DNA of 11,893 nt from a candidate division KSB1 bacterium (GTDB lineage Bacteria > Zhuqueibacterota > JdFR-76 > DREG01). The notes below the pieces were generated by a model. It did not search any database. It worked only from the letters and a program-made list of their open reading frames with translations, and was not told the origin of the DNA. Both the position numbers and the translations under genes were made by a program. The first letter of the stretch is position 1; every line of letters begins with the position of its first letter. Shown here piece after piece: positions 4,604 to 11,635 of the stretch. The stretch is from contig JADFJB010000135.1 of assembly GCA_022566355.1 (NCBI GenBank), forward strand, positions 1 through 11,893. The letters run 5' to 3'.

Positions 4604-5545
4604 ATGAGTGTTCAATTTGAAGATGTAAAAATTGCCCATGAAAGGATTAAGGATTATATACATCGAACGCCAGTTCTTACCTCGAAGACTTTAAATACAA
4701 TTGCAAATGCAGAACTATTTTTTAAATGTGAGAATTTCCAGAAAGCAGGTGCATTCAAATTTAGAGGAGCAACCAATGCTGTTTTCTCATTATCAAACGA
4801 GGAAGCACAAGCCGGTGTGGTTACACATTCGTCAGGGAATCATGCCGGCGCTCTGGCTCTTGCAGCAAAACAACGAGGTTGTCCGGCTTATCTGGTCATG
4901 CCGGTTAACGCAACAAAAGTAAAGAAAGAAGCAGTTCTTGGGTATGGCGGAAAAATCATAGAGTGTGGAACCACCATGAGTTCCCGGGAGGAAGTTGTCC
5001 AGCAAGTCATTGCTGATACAAACGCTGCTCTTATTCATCCTTACAACGACGAACGAATAATTGCTGGGCAGGGCACAGCTACTCTTGAACTGGTTGAAGA
5101 AATCGATGATCTGGATGCAGTGCTGGCTCCTGTCAGTGGGGGAGGGTTGTTGAGCGGAACAGCCATTGCTGCAAAAGGGTTGAAAAAAGATATTTTGGTC
5201 TTTGGCTGTGAACCGAAAAATGCTGACGATGCTTATCGATCCATGCAGTCCGGTAAACTTCAATCTATCGATAATCCTCAGACAATTGCAGATGGGCTGA
5301 GAGCTTCTCTTGGAGATAAAACATTTGCGATCATCAAAGAATTCGTTGATGGCATTTATTTGGTAACTGAAGAAGAAATAATAACTGCTATGAAATATTT
5401 ATGGGAAAGAATGAAAATCGTCGTTGAGCCTTCCGGATCTGTAGGGCTGGCTGCTTTATTGAGATCAAAACCAGAGTTGTATGGGAAACGGGTTGGGATT
5501 ATTCTTTCCGGAGGAAATGTGGATTTAGGGAATTTACCATTTTAA
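4604..5545 (+). CDS. Threonine/serine dehydratase or serine racemase-like PLP enzyme
   Basis: This 313-aa protein is a fold-type II PLP enzyme. The Schiff-base lysine is K52 in 'KAGAFKFRGA'; 'SSGNHAGALA' (residues 76-85) holds the substrate-binding loop, with S77 in the place of the serine-racemase re-face base; G179-G181 in 'SGGGLLSG' bind the PLP phosphate; and 'EPSGSVGLAAL' near the C-terminus contacts the pyridine nitrogen. It lacks the C-terminal ACT domain of biosynthetic IlvA, so it is the short, unregulated type that covers catabolic threonine dehydratase, serine racemase and threo-3-hydroxyaspartate ammonia-lyase. Sequence alone does not separate these. Expected chemistry is deamination of L-threonine or L-serine to a 2-oxoacid, or serine racemisation. 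No clear Shine-Dalgarno site precedes the ATG. With only 11 nt to the previous stop, translation is probably coupled to the peptidase gene. Confidence 0.88.
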   Translation: MSVQFEDVKIAHERIKDYIHRTPVLTSKTLNTIANAELFFKCENFQKAGAFKFRGATNAVFSLSNEEAQAGVVTHSSGNHAGALALAAKQRGCPAYLVMPVNATKVKKEAVLGYGGKIIECGTTMSSREEVVQQVIADTNAALIHPYNDERIIAGQGTATLELVEEIDDLDAVLAPVSGGGLLSGTAIAAKGLKKDILVFGCEPKNADDAYRSMQSGKLQSIDNPQTIADGLRASLGDKTFAIIKEFVDGIYLVTEEEIITAMKYLWERMKIVVEPSGSVGLAALLRSKPELYGKRVGIILSGGNVDLGNLPF

Positions 5546-5574
5546 GGGTTGGAATTATGGCGAGTAAAACTTAG

Positions 5575-5658
5575 TGCCGAAGGGGAGATTCGAACTCCCA
5601 CGAGCTTGCGCTCACTAGACCCTGAACCTAGCGTGTCTGCCAATTCCACCACTTCGGC
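5575..5658 (-). tRNA. tRNA-Leu(CAG)
   Basis: Read on the - strand, this gives a full class II tRNA of 84 nt. Acceptor arms GCCGAAG (5652-5658) and CTTCGGC (5576-5582) pair perfectly, with discriminator A at 5575. The D-loop contains AATTGGCAGA. The anticodon stem CTAGG/TCTAG encloses loop TTCAGGG with anticodon CAG at 5622-5624. The long variable arm has a GAGC/GCTC stem with a GCAA loop, and the T-arm is GGGAG-TTCGAAT-CTCCC. The long variable arm and CAG anticodon identify leucine. The CCA end is not encoded, so it must be added after transcription. The gene converges with the dehydratase gene, whose stop is 29 nt away. Confidence 0.97.
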
Positions 5659-5785: not shown

Positions 5786-5816
5786 AAACATCGGGGTTTT
5801 TAAAATCTAGGTGTTT
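5786..5816. repeat. REP-like 31-nt palindrome, copy 1 (decayed)
   Basis: This is the same 31-nt frame as the two palindromes that flank the transposase gene: AAACA, then GGGG at positions 8-11, a TTTTTAAAA centre, and GGTGTTT at the end. It matches the 9664-9694 copy at 26 of 31 positions. Its hairpin is weaker: three G·T pairs and one G-A mismatch replace Watson-Crick pairs in the GC part. It begins 21 nt beyond the lipoprotein stop codon on the - strand, but lacks a following T-run. It is best read as an old, immobile copy of the family. Confidence 0.72.
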
Positions 5817-5837: not shown

Positions 5838-6179
5838 CTACATTTTACCCGCAGAAAGTTTTTTCATATTCGGAGAAATAGACTGAGAATAGCCATTACC
5901 CACTATGAGTAATTTTTCCTGCCAGGTTGCGTAGCCTTCCAAAATGATGAGGATACCATATTCACCCTTGCGAAGATTAATGCTTAAATCGCCGTCTTCG
6001 TTGGTCATGCCGATAAATTTATTATTGATATAAATTCTTCCCTGGGCATTGAGGGGTTTACCATTATATTTAAGGTCAATTGAGAATCGGTTTTCGCCGA
6101 TTCTTATTGTTTTTGAATTACAAGAAGAAATGAGAATCAAACACAATACTGCCATTGTAATTTTGATTATATATTTCAT
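5838..6179 (-). CDS. Small lipoprotein with PEGA-like domain
   Basis: This is a 113-aa predicted lipoprotein. The start is set at the ATG at 6177-6179 because AGGAG (6186-6190) lies 6 nt before it; an in-frame ATG at 6201-6203 would add eight residues ahead of the signal and has no such site. A basic start (MKYIIK), a hydrophobic stretch and the lipobox I-S-S-C20 show export and lipidation; residue +2 is Asn, not the Asp that keeps E. coli lipoproteins in the inner membrane. After a polar linker, residues of roughly 45-100 ('RIYINNKFIGMTNEDGDLSINLRKG', then 'LEGYATWQEKLLIV') follow the PEGA-domain pattern: a short β-strand, a G-T turn, a basic-G loop and a 'GY' strand. PEGA domains are surface β-modules with no known catalysis; the role is unknown. 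It is a single gene with no evident partner. Confidence 0.72.
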   Translation of the reverse strand: MKYIIKITMAVLCLILISSCNSKTIRIGENRFSIDLKYNGKPLNAQGRIYINNKFIGMTNEDGDLSINLRKGEYGILIILEGYATWQEKLLIVGNGYSQSISPNMKKLSAGKM

Positions 6180-6218
6180 GATTAACTCCTGATTAGAATT
6201 CATGTATACAATCGGACA

Positions 6219-9025: not shown

Positions 9026-9056
9026 AAACCCCGGGGTCTTCAAGACCCCGGGGTTT
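9026..9056. repeat. REP-like 31-nt palindrome, copy 2 (3' of the transposase gene)
   Basis: Arms of 15 nt (9026-9040 and 9042-9056) are perfectly complementary around one central base, with a CCCCGGGG block inside each arm. It ends 12 nt before the transposase stop codon side (stop at 9069-9071, - strand), so a transcript of that gene runs into it. Four T residues follow on the - strand, enough for a modest terminator. It matches the 9664 copy at 25 of 31 positions, and changes at 5/27 and 13/19 are paired, keeping the stem. Confidence 0.9.
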
Positions 9057-9068
9057 GTAAGGCTGCAT

Positions 9069-9641
9069 TCAATCAAAGATATAATTACCAAAATTTTCAG
9101 GATATTCAATCGCTATATCCTCAACGAAATTTTCATATTCTAATGCATCAGCAAAAAGCGATTTAATAAAGTCTTTATCTATAAATTTCCCATTTCTTTT
9201 ACCAACAAATTCAAGATAATTAGAGAATGGCCAATCTTTTAGCTCGGTTACTAAATGGGCTTTAAGAGAATTTAAGTGAATATAACGACAAAGATGTACT
9301 AAATAATTATCCCTATCAACATGGATAGACTTAAACCGATGGGAAAAAAGTGAACCAGTGCGGTTGTATTTTTTATTGAAAGCTTTTACGTAGGCATTCA
9401 GCATTGTAGACATGAAACCTGATATGTCTTTATCACCATCATTTCTCAATAAAAAGTGAAAGTGGTTTGGCATTAAGCAATATGCTATTACCCTGATCTC
9501 AAAATTTGATACATATCTCTTAAGTAACTTTAGAAAATGATAATAATTATCTGTTTCTAAAAAGATTCTTTGCTTATTTGCTCCTCTATTATAAATATGA
9601 TAATAAAAACCTTTGATAAATTTTAAAGATCTTTTTGGCAT
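9069..9641 (-). CDS. REP-associated tyrosine transposase (IS200/IS605-like, Y1 HUH)
   Basis: This 190-aa protein is of the TnpA_REP (RAYT) type, a single-strand DNA nuclease related to IS200/IS605 transposases. The HUH metal-binding motif is H60-F-H62 in 'YCLMPNHFHFLLRN'. The probable catalytic tyrosine is Y84 in 'STMLNAYVKAFNKKYNRTGSLF', the usual RAYT helix, followed by 'HRFKSI', 'CRYIHLNSLKAHLV' and 'WPFSNYLEFVG', all characteristic of the group. The N-terminus 'FYYHIYNRGANKQRIF' is also typical. Length is normal, and no frameshift or internal stop is seen, so it may be active. No clear Shine-Dalgarno site precedes the ATG. It is flanked by hairpin palindromes of one family. RAYTs are usually single-copy, vertically kept genes that move REP elements rather than themselves. 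Confidence 0.92.
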   Translation of the reverse strand: MPKRSLKFIKGFYYHIYNRGANKQRIFLETDNYYHFLKLLKRYVSNFEIRVIAYCLMPNHFHFLLRNDGDKDISGFMSTMLNAYVKAFNKKYNRTGSLFSHRFKSIHVDRDNYLVHLCRYIHLNSLKAHLVTELKDWPFSNYLEFVGKRNGKFIDKDFIKSLFADALEYENFVEDIAIEYPENFGNYIFD

Positions 9642-9663
9642 TGATCAATTAGTTTCTATAAAA

Positions 9664-9694
9664 AAACACTGGGGTTTTTAAAACCCCGGTGTTT
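9664..9694 (-). terminator. REP-like 31-nt palindrome, copy 3, acting as recD terminator
   Basis: 15-nt arms (9664-9678 and 9680-9694) pair fully apart from one G·T, around a single central base. On the - strand, the hairpin is followed directly by a run of seven T residues, the form of a rho-independent terminator. The last two bases of the palindrome are also the first two read as part of the recD TAA stop codon (9693-9695), so gene end and hairpin overlap. The transposase start codon is 22 nt further on. Confidence 0.8.
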
Positions 9695-11513
9695 AATAGT
9701 CCCAAACTGCGTCTCTCAAACCGGAAGTTCGTTTAGTCTTTCTCGAAACTGCTGCACGAAATACTTGCTCATTGCTCCAAACTTCAACCTGCTTTGCAGC
9801 CCTGGTTATTCCCGTATAAAGCAATTCTCGACTTAAAATAGGAGAGTCTTTATCCGGTAATATCATGATGACTTTATCAAATTCTGAACCCTGGCTTTTA
9901 TGGACTGTAATGGCATAAGCAATTTCATAAACGGGTAATCTAAAAGGCCTTAACTTGCGTAGGGCTCCATCTGGCCCTGGGAAAAATACACGTAATTCAT
10001 TGTCGTTATCATCATTAGGAAATACAATACCAAGATCGCCGTTAAAAAGATTTAGGCTATAATCATTTTCGGTTATGAGAATGGGCTGTCCGGCATACCA
10101 TAATTCATTTTGTTTGATGTTGTTTTTCCTTTTGATAAATTGTTCAACCTGGGCATTGATAGCTTTTACACCAAAAGGTCCTTCCCGCAAAGCACACAAA
10201 ATTCGAAACCTTTCAAATTGGTTGAAAAGTTCTGCGATATTTTTTGAATCTGAAATTTTGCCAAACTCGTGTAAAATATCGGGCAATATATGATCCGTTA
10301 AATCATGCCAGGTTACATCTGGATATTGATCGCTTTGAAGAACATCAATAGCGTGATCTGCTTCTCCGGAATTTACAAATTGGCTTAAAGCTCCTATGCC
10401 TTTCTGAGATTCAAACCGATAGCTTTTTTGGAGTCTTACAATACAATCTTTGATTCCGGATTTATTTGTTTCAATTGTTCTTATTTCTAATTTTTGTCTA
10501 TAAAGCCCTTCAATTCTTTCAACGAATTCTTGAGTATAATATTGTTCTAAAGTAGATCCACAAATATCAGCCAGCACCGCTCCGGCTTCAACAGAAGCGA
10601 GTTGATTATTGTCACCCAAAAGTATCAGCTTTGAATTTGAGGGGAGTGCAGAGGTTAGCTTCGTCATCAATGCAAGATCAACCATGGAAGCTTCATCCAC
10701 AACGATTACATCCACTTCCAAAGGGTTGTCCGTGTTATGTCTGAAATAAGGTGAATATGGAATTGTACCAAGAATTCGATGGATTGTTGCGGCCTCTTCC
10801 GGAATCATGGCTCTTATCTCATCGGGACAATTTAATTCCTTTTTAACTTGTTTGATTGAATCCTGAAGACGAACTGCAGCTTTACCAGTCGGTGCTGCTA
10901 ATTGAATTCTCAAATTTCCGCAGTTATTTTGTGCGAGCAATAGCGCGAGAATTTTAGCCACTGTGTGGGTTTTCCCGGTGCCCGGGCCACCAGTAATGAC
11001 ACAGAAGTCTTTCAACAAAGCTGTTATTGCCGAGAATTTTTGCCAATCGATTTTACCATTAGAATTTCCAGAGAAAAGGCGATCCAACAGGTTGTTTACT
11101 ACTAAAGGATTATTTATCTCTTGTATCTTATGAACTCGATCTTTAATAAATTTCGCCAAGTTTTCCTGGTAAGTCCAATATCTGTTAAGATAGAGTCTGT
11201 TTTTGTTTTCGAGAATGAGGGGCTTGAATTCACCGGGTTGACCCACGACCGTGGTGTTTGAAAGTTTAGCGATGAACTCGCTTGTTGAAGGAATCTTGGA
11301 TTCAATATTTTCACCGTATTTATTTTTAATAAAATCGGGATTATCAAATTCATTAAGATCCAAACAAATATGACCCTCCCTTGTTTGGCTGCTTACCAAG
11401 GCAGAAGCTAAAAACAGTTCCTTATCCTGTGATTTGGCAAGGCGCATCATCATATTGGCAAAATGGAGGTCTATGTGGGAGATTGATTCGTTTTGTTTTA
11501 GGGTATGTTGCAT
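9693..11513 (-). CDS. recD: Exodeoxyribonuclease V α-subunit (RecD helicase)
   Basis: This 606-aa protein is a superfamily 1B 5'-3' DNA helicase. Walker A G175-G-P-G-T-G-K181-T, motif Ia 'LAAPTGKAA', Walker B V-V-D273-E274-A-S, motif III 'LLGDNNQLASVEAG', a motif V-type 'VHKSQGSEFD' (about 537-546) and motif VI 'YTGITRA' (about 566-572) are all present. Length equals classic RecD (about 600 aa) rather than the longer RecD2 (over 700), so it should work with RecB and RecC in double-strand-break repair and degradation of linear foreign DNA. The first ~150 residues would be the RecC-contacting domain. Neither recB nor recC is in view; the 3' end of the next gene upstream does not look like RecB. 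The ATG at 11511-11513 has no clear ribosome-binding site, so the exact start is a little uncertain. The stop codon overlaps a REP-like hairpin. Confidence 0.93.
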   Translation of the reverse strand: MQHTLKQNESISHIDLHFANMMMRLAKSQDKELFLASALVSSQTREGHICLDLNEFDNPDFIKNKYGENIESKIPSTSEFIAKLSNTTVVGQPGEFKPLILENKNRLYLNRYWTYQENLAKFIKDRVHKIQEINNPLVVNNLLDRLFSGNSNGKIDWQKFSAITALLKDFCVITGGPGTGKTHTVAKILALLLAQNNCGNLRIQLAAPTGKAAVRLQDSIKQVKKELNCPDEIRAMIPEEAATIHRILGTIPYSPYFRHNTDNPLEVDVIVVDEASMVDLALMTKLTSALPSNSKLILLGDNNQLASVEAGAVLADICGSTLEQYYTQEFVERIEGLYRQKLEIRTIETNKSGIKDCIVRLQKSYRFESQKGIGALSQFVNSGEADHAIDVLQSDQYPDVTWHDLTDHILPDILHEFGKISDSKNIAELFNQFERFRILCALREGPFGVKAINAQVEQFIKRKNNIKQNELWYAGQPILITENDYSLNLFNGDLGIVFPNDDNDNELRVFFPGPDGALRKLRPFRLPVYEIAYAITVHKSQGSEFDKVIMILPDKDSPILSRELLYTGITRAAKQVEVWSNEQVFRAAVSRKTKRTSGLRDAVWDY

Positions 11514-11558: not shown

Positions 11559-11635
11559 AAGCCATGCTGAGCGGAGTCGAAGCATGTTATTTTCTCGTAA
11601 GTGATACCGCCGTTCGACTCCGTTCAGGGTGGCTT
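11559..11635. repeat. Long inverted repeat with 23-nt arms (GAGCGGAGTCGAA type)
   Basis: Arm 11559-11581 and arm 11613-11635 are inverse complements at 20 of 23 positions; two of the three differences still allow G·T pairing. The loop is 31 nt. The first arm also forms a smaller hairpin of its own: CATGCT at 11563-11568 with AGCATG at 11581-11586. GCCATGTTGA (11541-11550) and GCCATGCTGA (11561-11570) are near-identical direct repeats at 20-nt spacing. The core CTGAGCGGAGTCGAA recalls a dispersed repeat seen in many environmental bacterial genomes. Lying between recD and the upstream gene on the - strand, it could end or attenuate transcription. Confidence 0.8.

Follow-up and report, generated by a model that had tools for sequence, protein, structure and literature searches.

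A RAYT-like gene and its untagged, compact REPIN-type hairpins in a candidate division KSB1 bacterium

The locus and the RAYT-like protein

The window analysed here is the whole 11,893-nt stretch of contig JADFJB010000135.1 from a candidate division KSB1 bacterium. An earlier reading, made from the letters of the window only (the sequence-only reading), had proposed that it contains a RAYT gene bracketed by two related palindromes, and this arrangement was confirmed. The features of the locus are listed in Table 1, together with the hairpins of two related loci.

Table 1. Features of the window and hairpins of two related loci
Feature	Position in window	Strand	Basis
RAYT/TnpAREP-type HUH-tyrosine protein, 190 aa	9069..9641	-	Pfam, NCBIfam, PDB, invariant residues
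Downstream cognate hairpin, perfect 31-nt palindrome	9026..9056	.	Sequence; fold z -5.3; same family beside G001 RAYT
Upstream cognate hairpin, 31 nt	9664..9694	.	Sequence; fold z -4.3; terminator-like scan match
Left half of the doublet, itself a palindrome, ACCCCGGGGT	9028..9037	.	Sequence; two-level test on class
Right half of the doublet, itself a palindrome, ACCCCGGGGT	9045..9054	.	Sequence; two-level test on class
Third copy of the family, decayed, behind ORF 5838-6203(-)	5786..5816	.	Direct repeat family D1; no fold
Hairpin of locus L054, AACCTTGCG
Hairpin of locus L032, AGAAGGTAACCTTCT

The protein matched Pfam Y1_Tnp (2.9e-12) as its sole domain and NCBIfam REP_Tyr_transpos (NF047646) with 72.7 bits, the curated cut-off being 80. 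Its 36 relatives scored 56 to 83 bits against NF047646, on both sides of the 80-bit cut-off, and all 36 matched REP_Tyr_transpos and no other family (1e-5). The AlphaFold model had a pLDDT of 93, and 4er8, in which E. coli TnpAREP is bound to a REP hairpin, was the only PDB sequence match as well as the best fold match. The HUH motif was assigned to residues 60-62, with Tyr120 as the candidate catalytic tyrosine and Asn124 as a ligand; H60, H62, Y120 and N124 were invariant in 36/36 relatives. In its Y1_Tnp domain, its HUH/Tyr/Asn set and the hairpins that flank its gene the protein agrees with the RAYT/TnpAREP group (class 2 Y1 HUH proteins). In the Y---NP motif it carries S in place of the P present in 34/36 relatives, and it may be impaired. 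The TnpAREP residues described for GTAG recognition are W94, Q95, E100, H101 and R104 (PMC6006769), and the aligned residues of the window protein are F, S, S, I and D. In the clade the W is mostly F, the R is most often D and the Q is often kept. An IS200/IS605 insertion sequence was rejected, as no near-identical whole-gene copies were found (RAYT-like genes elsewhere in this genome were 33-38% identical to the window RAYT) and one relative lies at the same locus in congeners.

The downstream hairpin lies 12 nt past the RAYT stop codon. The upstream one, 22 nt ahead of the RAYT start, shares bases with the stop codon of recD and is followed by a T run on the minus strand. Both had been described as 31-nt palindromes with 15-nt arms and one central base, which is fully true of the downstream copy, but the upstream copy contains a single T.G pair, at 7/25. 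As had been stated, the two are identical at 25/31 positions, with differences at 5, 7, 13, 16, 19 and 27, and the double changes at 5/27 (C-G vs A-T) and 13/19 (C-G vs T-A) preserve pairing. Their folding energies lay 5.3 and 4.3 sd under those of dinucleotide shuffles (0/200 each). The covariance model suggested earlier counted on three copies, and the two window hairpins do fold, but the third stretch resembles the family in sequence and has lost the fold (z = 0.17), and it is therefore regarded as a decayed copy.

An Rfam search of the window returned a tRNA as the only match, the palindromes matching no family. The tRNA-Leu (CAG) gene is located at 5574-5658 on the minus strand, between a dehydratase gene (4604-5545) and the decayed hairpin copy. 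On the other side of the RAYT gene, recD of the classical RecBCD type occupies 9693-11513 on the minus strand. No recD ortholog was found in the eight relatives searched, the best matches being 33-51% identical, partial and located in longer proteins, and the search gave no empty site for the window locus. Upstream of recD, a 23-nt inverted repeat, AAGCCATGCTGAGCGGAGTCGAA / TTCGACTCCGTTCAGGGTGGCTT, was observed at 11559-11581 and 11613-11635. It represents another type of hairpin than those flanking the RAYT gene, and its core was not found among the RAYT loci examined.

Hairpin architecture at related loci

A total of 128 loci encoding RAYT relatives was examined in the phylum of the window and beyond, including Chloroflexota, Cyanobacteria, Cloacimonadota, Patescibacteria, Ignavibacteria and other genomes. 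A repeat common to both flanks (score of at least 13) was present at 82% of the 128 loci and in 3% of mismatched flank pairs. Among 117 non-redundant loci, strong hairpins at most 250 nt from the gene were detected upstream at 54, downstream at 58 and on both sides at 46, counts that are lower bounds because the finder accepts ungapped, near-perfect stems and is blind to bulged REPs; as it reports none at E. coli rayT, the intended positive control, the comparison has no tagged-class control. Strong hairpins occurred in none of the shuffles and in 1.6% of distant 265-nt windows at related loci, so a hairpin on each side of the window gene is not due to chance. Paired hairpins were about 91% identical within a locus and about 39% identical between loci, and the downstream ones lay a median of 12 nt past the stop codon.

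The commonest hairpin length was 33 nt (51/112), with two 15-nt halves in inverted orientation and a 3-nt spacer, and such a hairpin reads identically on both strands. A1, T15, A19 and T33 were each conserved at 87-90%, and no base was conserved outside the hairpin. The halves scored 4.9 as inner palindromes, against 2.8 for shuffled halves, and 54% of the hairpins passed the inner-palindrome test, some families having no inner palindrome; examples of half-sites are AACCTT-gcg-AAGGTT, AGACTTC-c-GAAGTCT and ACCCC-GGGGT. The AAAC-GGGG-AAAA-CCCC-GTTT layout, to which the sequence-only reading could assign no named REP class, proved to be one spelling of this general 33-nt design, each arm being near-palindromic. 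In one family of genome G028 every exact half-site belonged to an inverted doublet, always in the same order, if doublets whose partner is mutated are included, and some doublets of G006 had 39- or 69-nt spacers. The architecture is that of a REPIN, in which two inverted units form one long hairpin, but the units are not GTRG REPs. Our reading is that the hairpins are REPINs (inverted REP doublets) of a compact kind that carries no tag and is putatively processed by its RAYT.

The absence of an adjacent GTAG-type tetranucleotide, noted earlier for the window, extended to the whole class. GTRG stood directly at the foot in 0/222 cases and within 8 nt in 5, with 7 expected, so the canonical REP tag is lacking. 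The TnpAREPs studied so far use the GTRG head, to varying degrees, for strand discrimination and for the choice of cleavage site (PMC8266576). Both cues are missing from a site that is symmetric and untagged, and another rule would thus be needed if the hairpins are processed.

Hairpin copies and enzyme lineages

The proposed tie between the hairpin and the neighbouring enzyme was supported, in that hairpin sequence tracked RAYT identity. Hairpins were shared by 77-91% of RAYT pairs with at least 60% identity and by 0-6% of pairs below 45%, the permutation test used here ignoring phylogeny. In G001 one copy of the window family was found close past the stop codon of a RAYT 51% identical to that of the window, among other neighbouring genes.

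Further copies had also been anticipated in the genome itself. Three pattern matches and one decayed copy were found there by pattern, model and protein search, but the family is very small in its own genome. The two genomes sampled from the same taxonomic family contained 2 and 3 copies, and a single match came from the others among the 99 genomes searched. All window-family copies were located at most 27 nt from a stop codon, and those of G002 had no adjacent RAYT. Hairpin copies in general were mostly intergenic, including sites behind unrelated genes. Copies of the AACCTTGCG hairpin, of another family than that of the window, numbered 28 in G037, 25 in G061, 14 in G045 and 11 in G006, with no close RAYT relative in the assemblies. 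A strict rule of no hairpin without a RAYT was rejected on the strength of these four genomes and G002. Copies in relatives devoid of the RAYT gene, which the sequence-only reading had named as speaking against it, were thereby partly encountered, in G002 for the window family and in the four genomes for other families. So many copies without a close RAYT mean that the copies outlive the enzyme, that the assembly lacks the enzyme or that another agent is involved.

The 11 AACCTTGCG copies of G006 were set against the congener G005, in which none was present and the orthologous intergenic gaps contained no hairpin, the junctions being too diverged to be exact. The RAYT gene occupied the same place in both congeners, so the gene itself was not seen to move.

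Hairpins were also located inside genes. In eleven RAYT loci an in-frame hairpin was identified at nt ~185-221 of the ORF, a site that in the window model falls in the loop following the HUH strand (residues 68-72); the window RAYT gene contained no such hairpin. In-frame insertions between the HUH and Tyr motifs have been described for TnpAREP subclass 2.4 (PMC6006769). At L070 (G044:C47) a RAYT-like ORF had three tandem in-frame hairpins inside and the protein was enlarged to 250 aa. The genome of the window encodes two more RAYT-like genes with open frames, and each has a hairpin family of its own, with copies around the gene and one within it. These in-ORF copies, in frame and just past the HUH motif, were observed at L003:1695-1727 (G000:C3) and L004:1670-1700 (G000:C29); the L004 protein has lost the YCLxNH part and is probably dead.

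Interpretation and related systems

In one family, 18 of the 29 copies with two changes were altered at mirror positions with a Watson-Crick match, where 0.33 was expected, and the covariation score of ten window-family copies exceeded that of all 500 shuffles. The inner palindrome was rejected as the conserved fold, since no covariation was found in the inner palindromes of the window family and that of AACCTTGCG was broken in 16/18 compensated copies. The long hairpin covaries and the inner palindromes do not, which argues that the long hairpin is what is maintained. The earlier claim that the folded hairpin has been kept thus agrees with covariation in two families, but template switching has been described as creating and maintaining hairpins (PMC8794818) and can compensate changes without selection, so compensation is no proof of selection or of function. 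Mutation bias might keep the palindromes by itself, with template switching in near-palindromes restoring symmetry and compensation being uninformative about a protein partner. The symmetric two-change copies, which also come from genomes with no close RAYT, fit this explanation; it is nevertheless rather unlikely, as it leaves the bracketing of RAYT genes, the common 33-nt length, the end letters and the co-variation with RAYT lineage unexplained. Template switching and processing by the RAYT can act jointly.

The close spacing of the window-family copies to stop codons and the minus-strand T run of the upstream hairpin, which was called terminator-like, would suit ordinary intrinsic terminators or mRNA-end hairpins, alike only because bidirectional terminators look like one another, and with the RAYT as an unrelated neighbour. 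Across the class, 8 nt with five or more T followed directly on 5/57 downstream hairpins, with 2.6 expected, and a simple intrinsic terminator was on this ground rejected for the class; the T run was found only at the 9664 copy. Since hairpins also occur upstream of the gene and in frame inside RAYT genes, match each other within a locus and follow RAYT identity rather than the host, this explanation is improbable, and a secondary role as terminator is compatible with processing by the RAYT. The two-fold symmetric, tag-less doublets with fixed spacing and ends also resemble dimer or tetramer operators, and together with the stable position of the RAYT gene between congeners they could indicate a domesticated regulator, no longer a nuclease, which binds duplex sites and represses its own gene and others. 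The invariant catalytic residues (36/36) and a fold closest to single-strand hairpin binders speak against such a regulator, and sites just past stop codons and behind unrelated genes would be poor operators; this explanation, too, is improbable.

We consider it probable that the locus is a REPtron-like unit, in which a RAYT/TnpAREP-type HUH-tyrosine protein is flanked on either side by a cognate hairpin, a tag-less inverted doublet (a minimal REPIN) and a putative substrate of the RAYT. The core interpretation of the sequence-only reading is likely to be right. Counted against a REPtron-like unit are the low copy number in the own genome, the copies with no close RAYT, the pass rate of only about half in the inner-palindrome test, the stationary RAYT gene, the permutation test that ignores phylogeny and the S of the window protein in the Y---NP motif. 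According to the proposed mechanism, a compact, strand-symmetric doublet, mostly of 33 nt with A...T ends in the class and of 31 nt as delimited in the window, would fold when the site becomes single-stranded on the lagging strand. The RAYT would bind the hairpin in its folded state, guided by geometry and by contacts specific to the lineage in place of a GTRG tag, may nick its border by means of the HUH/Tyr site, with a putative choice of strand, and might occasionally move or copy this short element to intergenic positions elsewhere, frequently right behind stop codons. Enzyme and hairpin spelling would change together over time, and any benefit to the host would be a putative one.

A wider proposal, which we hold tentatively, is that a cross-phylum branch of RAYTs, having abandoned the GTRG guide, reads a strand-symmetric 33-nt two-level palindrome by its geometry (A-13nt-T, 3 nt, A-13nt-T) and by lineage-specific contacts. 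REP-type elements would then have a second code of recognition. Enzyme and target would drift jointly under it, and the unit, whose 33 nt make 11 codons, could be inserted in frame into genes, the RAYT gene in particular. What is understood of REP recognition comes solely from hairpins that are tagged and strand-specific (PMC8266576). A large survey made the GTRG tag a condition of automatic REP detection and dealt with other structures manually (PMC6006769), which leaves room for an untagged class to be missed. A common, symmetric class with no tag, in which dozens of enzymes are matched to their hairpins, would provide a set for learning how HUH transposases choose their hairpins. The same pairs could show how strand and cleavage site are chosen without a guide tetranucleotide and how enzyme and target change jointly. 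No description of an untagged compact doublet class was found in the literature searched, subscription papers being outside its scope. RAYT groups are reportedly treated by Bertels et al. 2017.

The window class shares with the REPtrons of E. coli (rayT), Stenotrophomonas and Pseudomonas (PMC2817692, PMC8266576) the Y1 HUH fold, the gene flanked by its own repeated hairpins, the hairpin sequence that tracks enzyme lineage and the extragenic solo copies. It differs in having no GTRG head, a strand-symmetric doublet in place of a strand-specific REP, mostly changed GTAG-reading residues and, for the window family, few copies. TnpAY1 subclass 2.4 (PMC6006769) is similar in its in-frame hairpins between HUH and Tyr and its 'double foot' palindromic REP type, but its feet are GTRG/CYAC, absent here; subclass 2.6 (PMC6006769) shares the lack of GTRG, its atypical structures being found repeatedly in the genome of the host. 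In a by-eye comparison with Table 1 of that survey (PMC6006769), the motifs NHFH, F-S and YIHLNS of the window protein fitted neither entry exactly. TIRYTs and TIRtrons (PMC3733652) also combine RAYT-like genes with flanking repeats that have no GTRG and are in part self-complementary, whereas here the GGGGWSAS motif and the C-terminal HTH-like extension are absent and the hairpin design is uniform. A TIRYT (subclass 2.1, with a C-terminal HTH-like domain and no hairpins) was rejected for the window protein, which has 190 aa, matched Y1_Tnp alone and is flanked by hairpins. The 18-nt palindrome nAACCGTTnnAACGGTTn of Caldithrix abyssi (PMC5317091) is likewise untagged, short and REP-like in its intergenic placement, also between convergent genes, but it is a single unit with strand bias and no RAYT was reported with it.

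REPINs (PMC3116915) are likewise inverted doublets of palindromic units that form one long hairpin with compensatory changes, and their wide spacing and tandem arrays have counterparts in G006 and at some RAYT loci; the hairpins described here differ by the missing tag and the 15-nt half-sites. Overall, the window holds a RAYT-like protein accompanied by hairpins of its own, which are compact, untagged and of REPIN type.

Some RAYT genes (L004, L028, L037, L043, L044, L062, L066, L076 and L035) were located between long direct repeats of about 50-290 nt, for which target duplication was considered as a reading. Several of these repeats are tandem arrays of hairpin and spacer, and those of L028 and L035 are duplicated ends of neighbouring genes.
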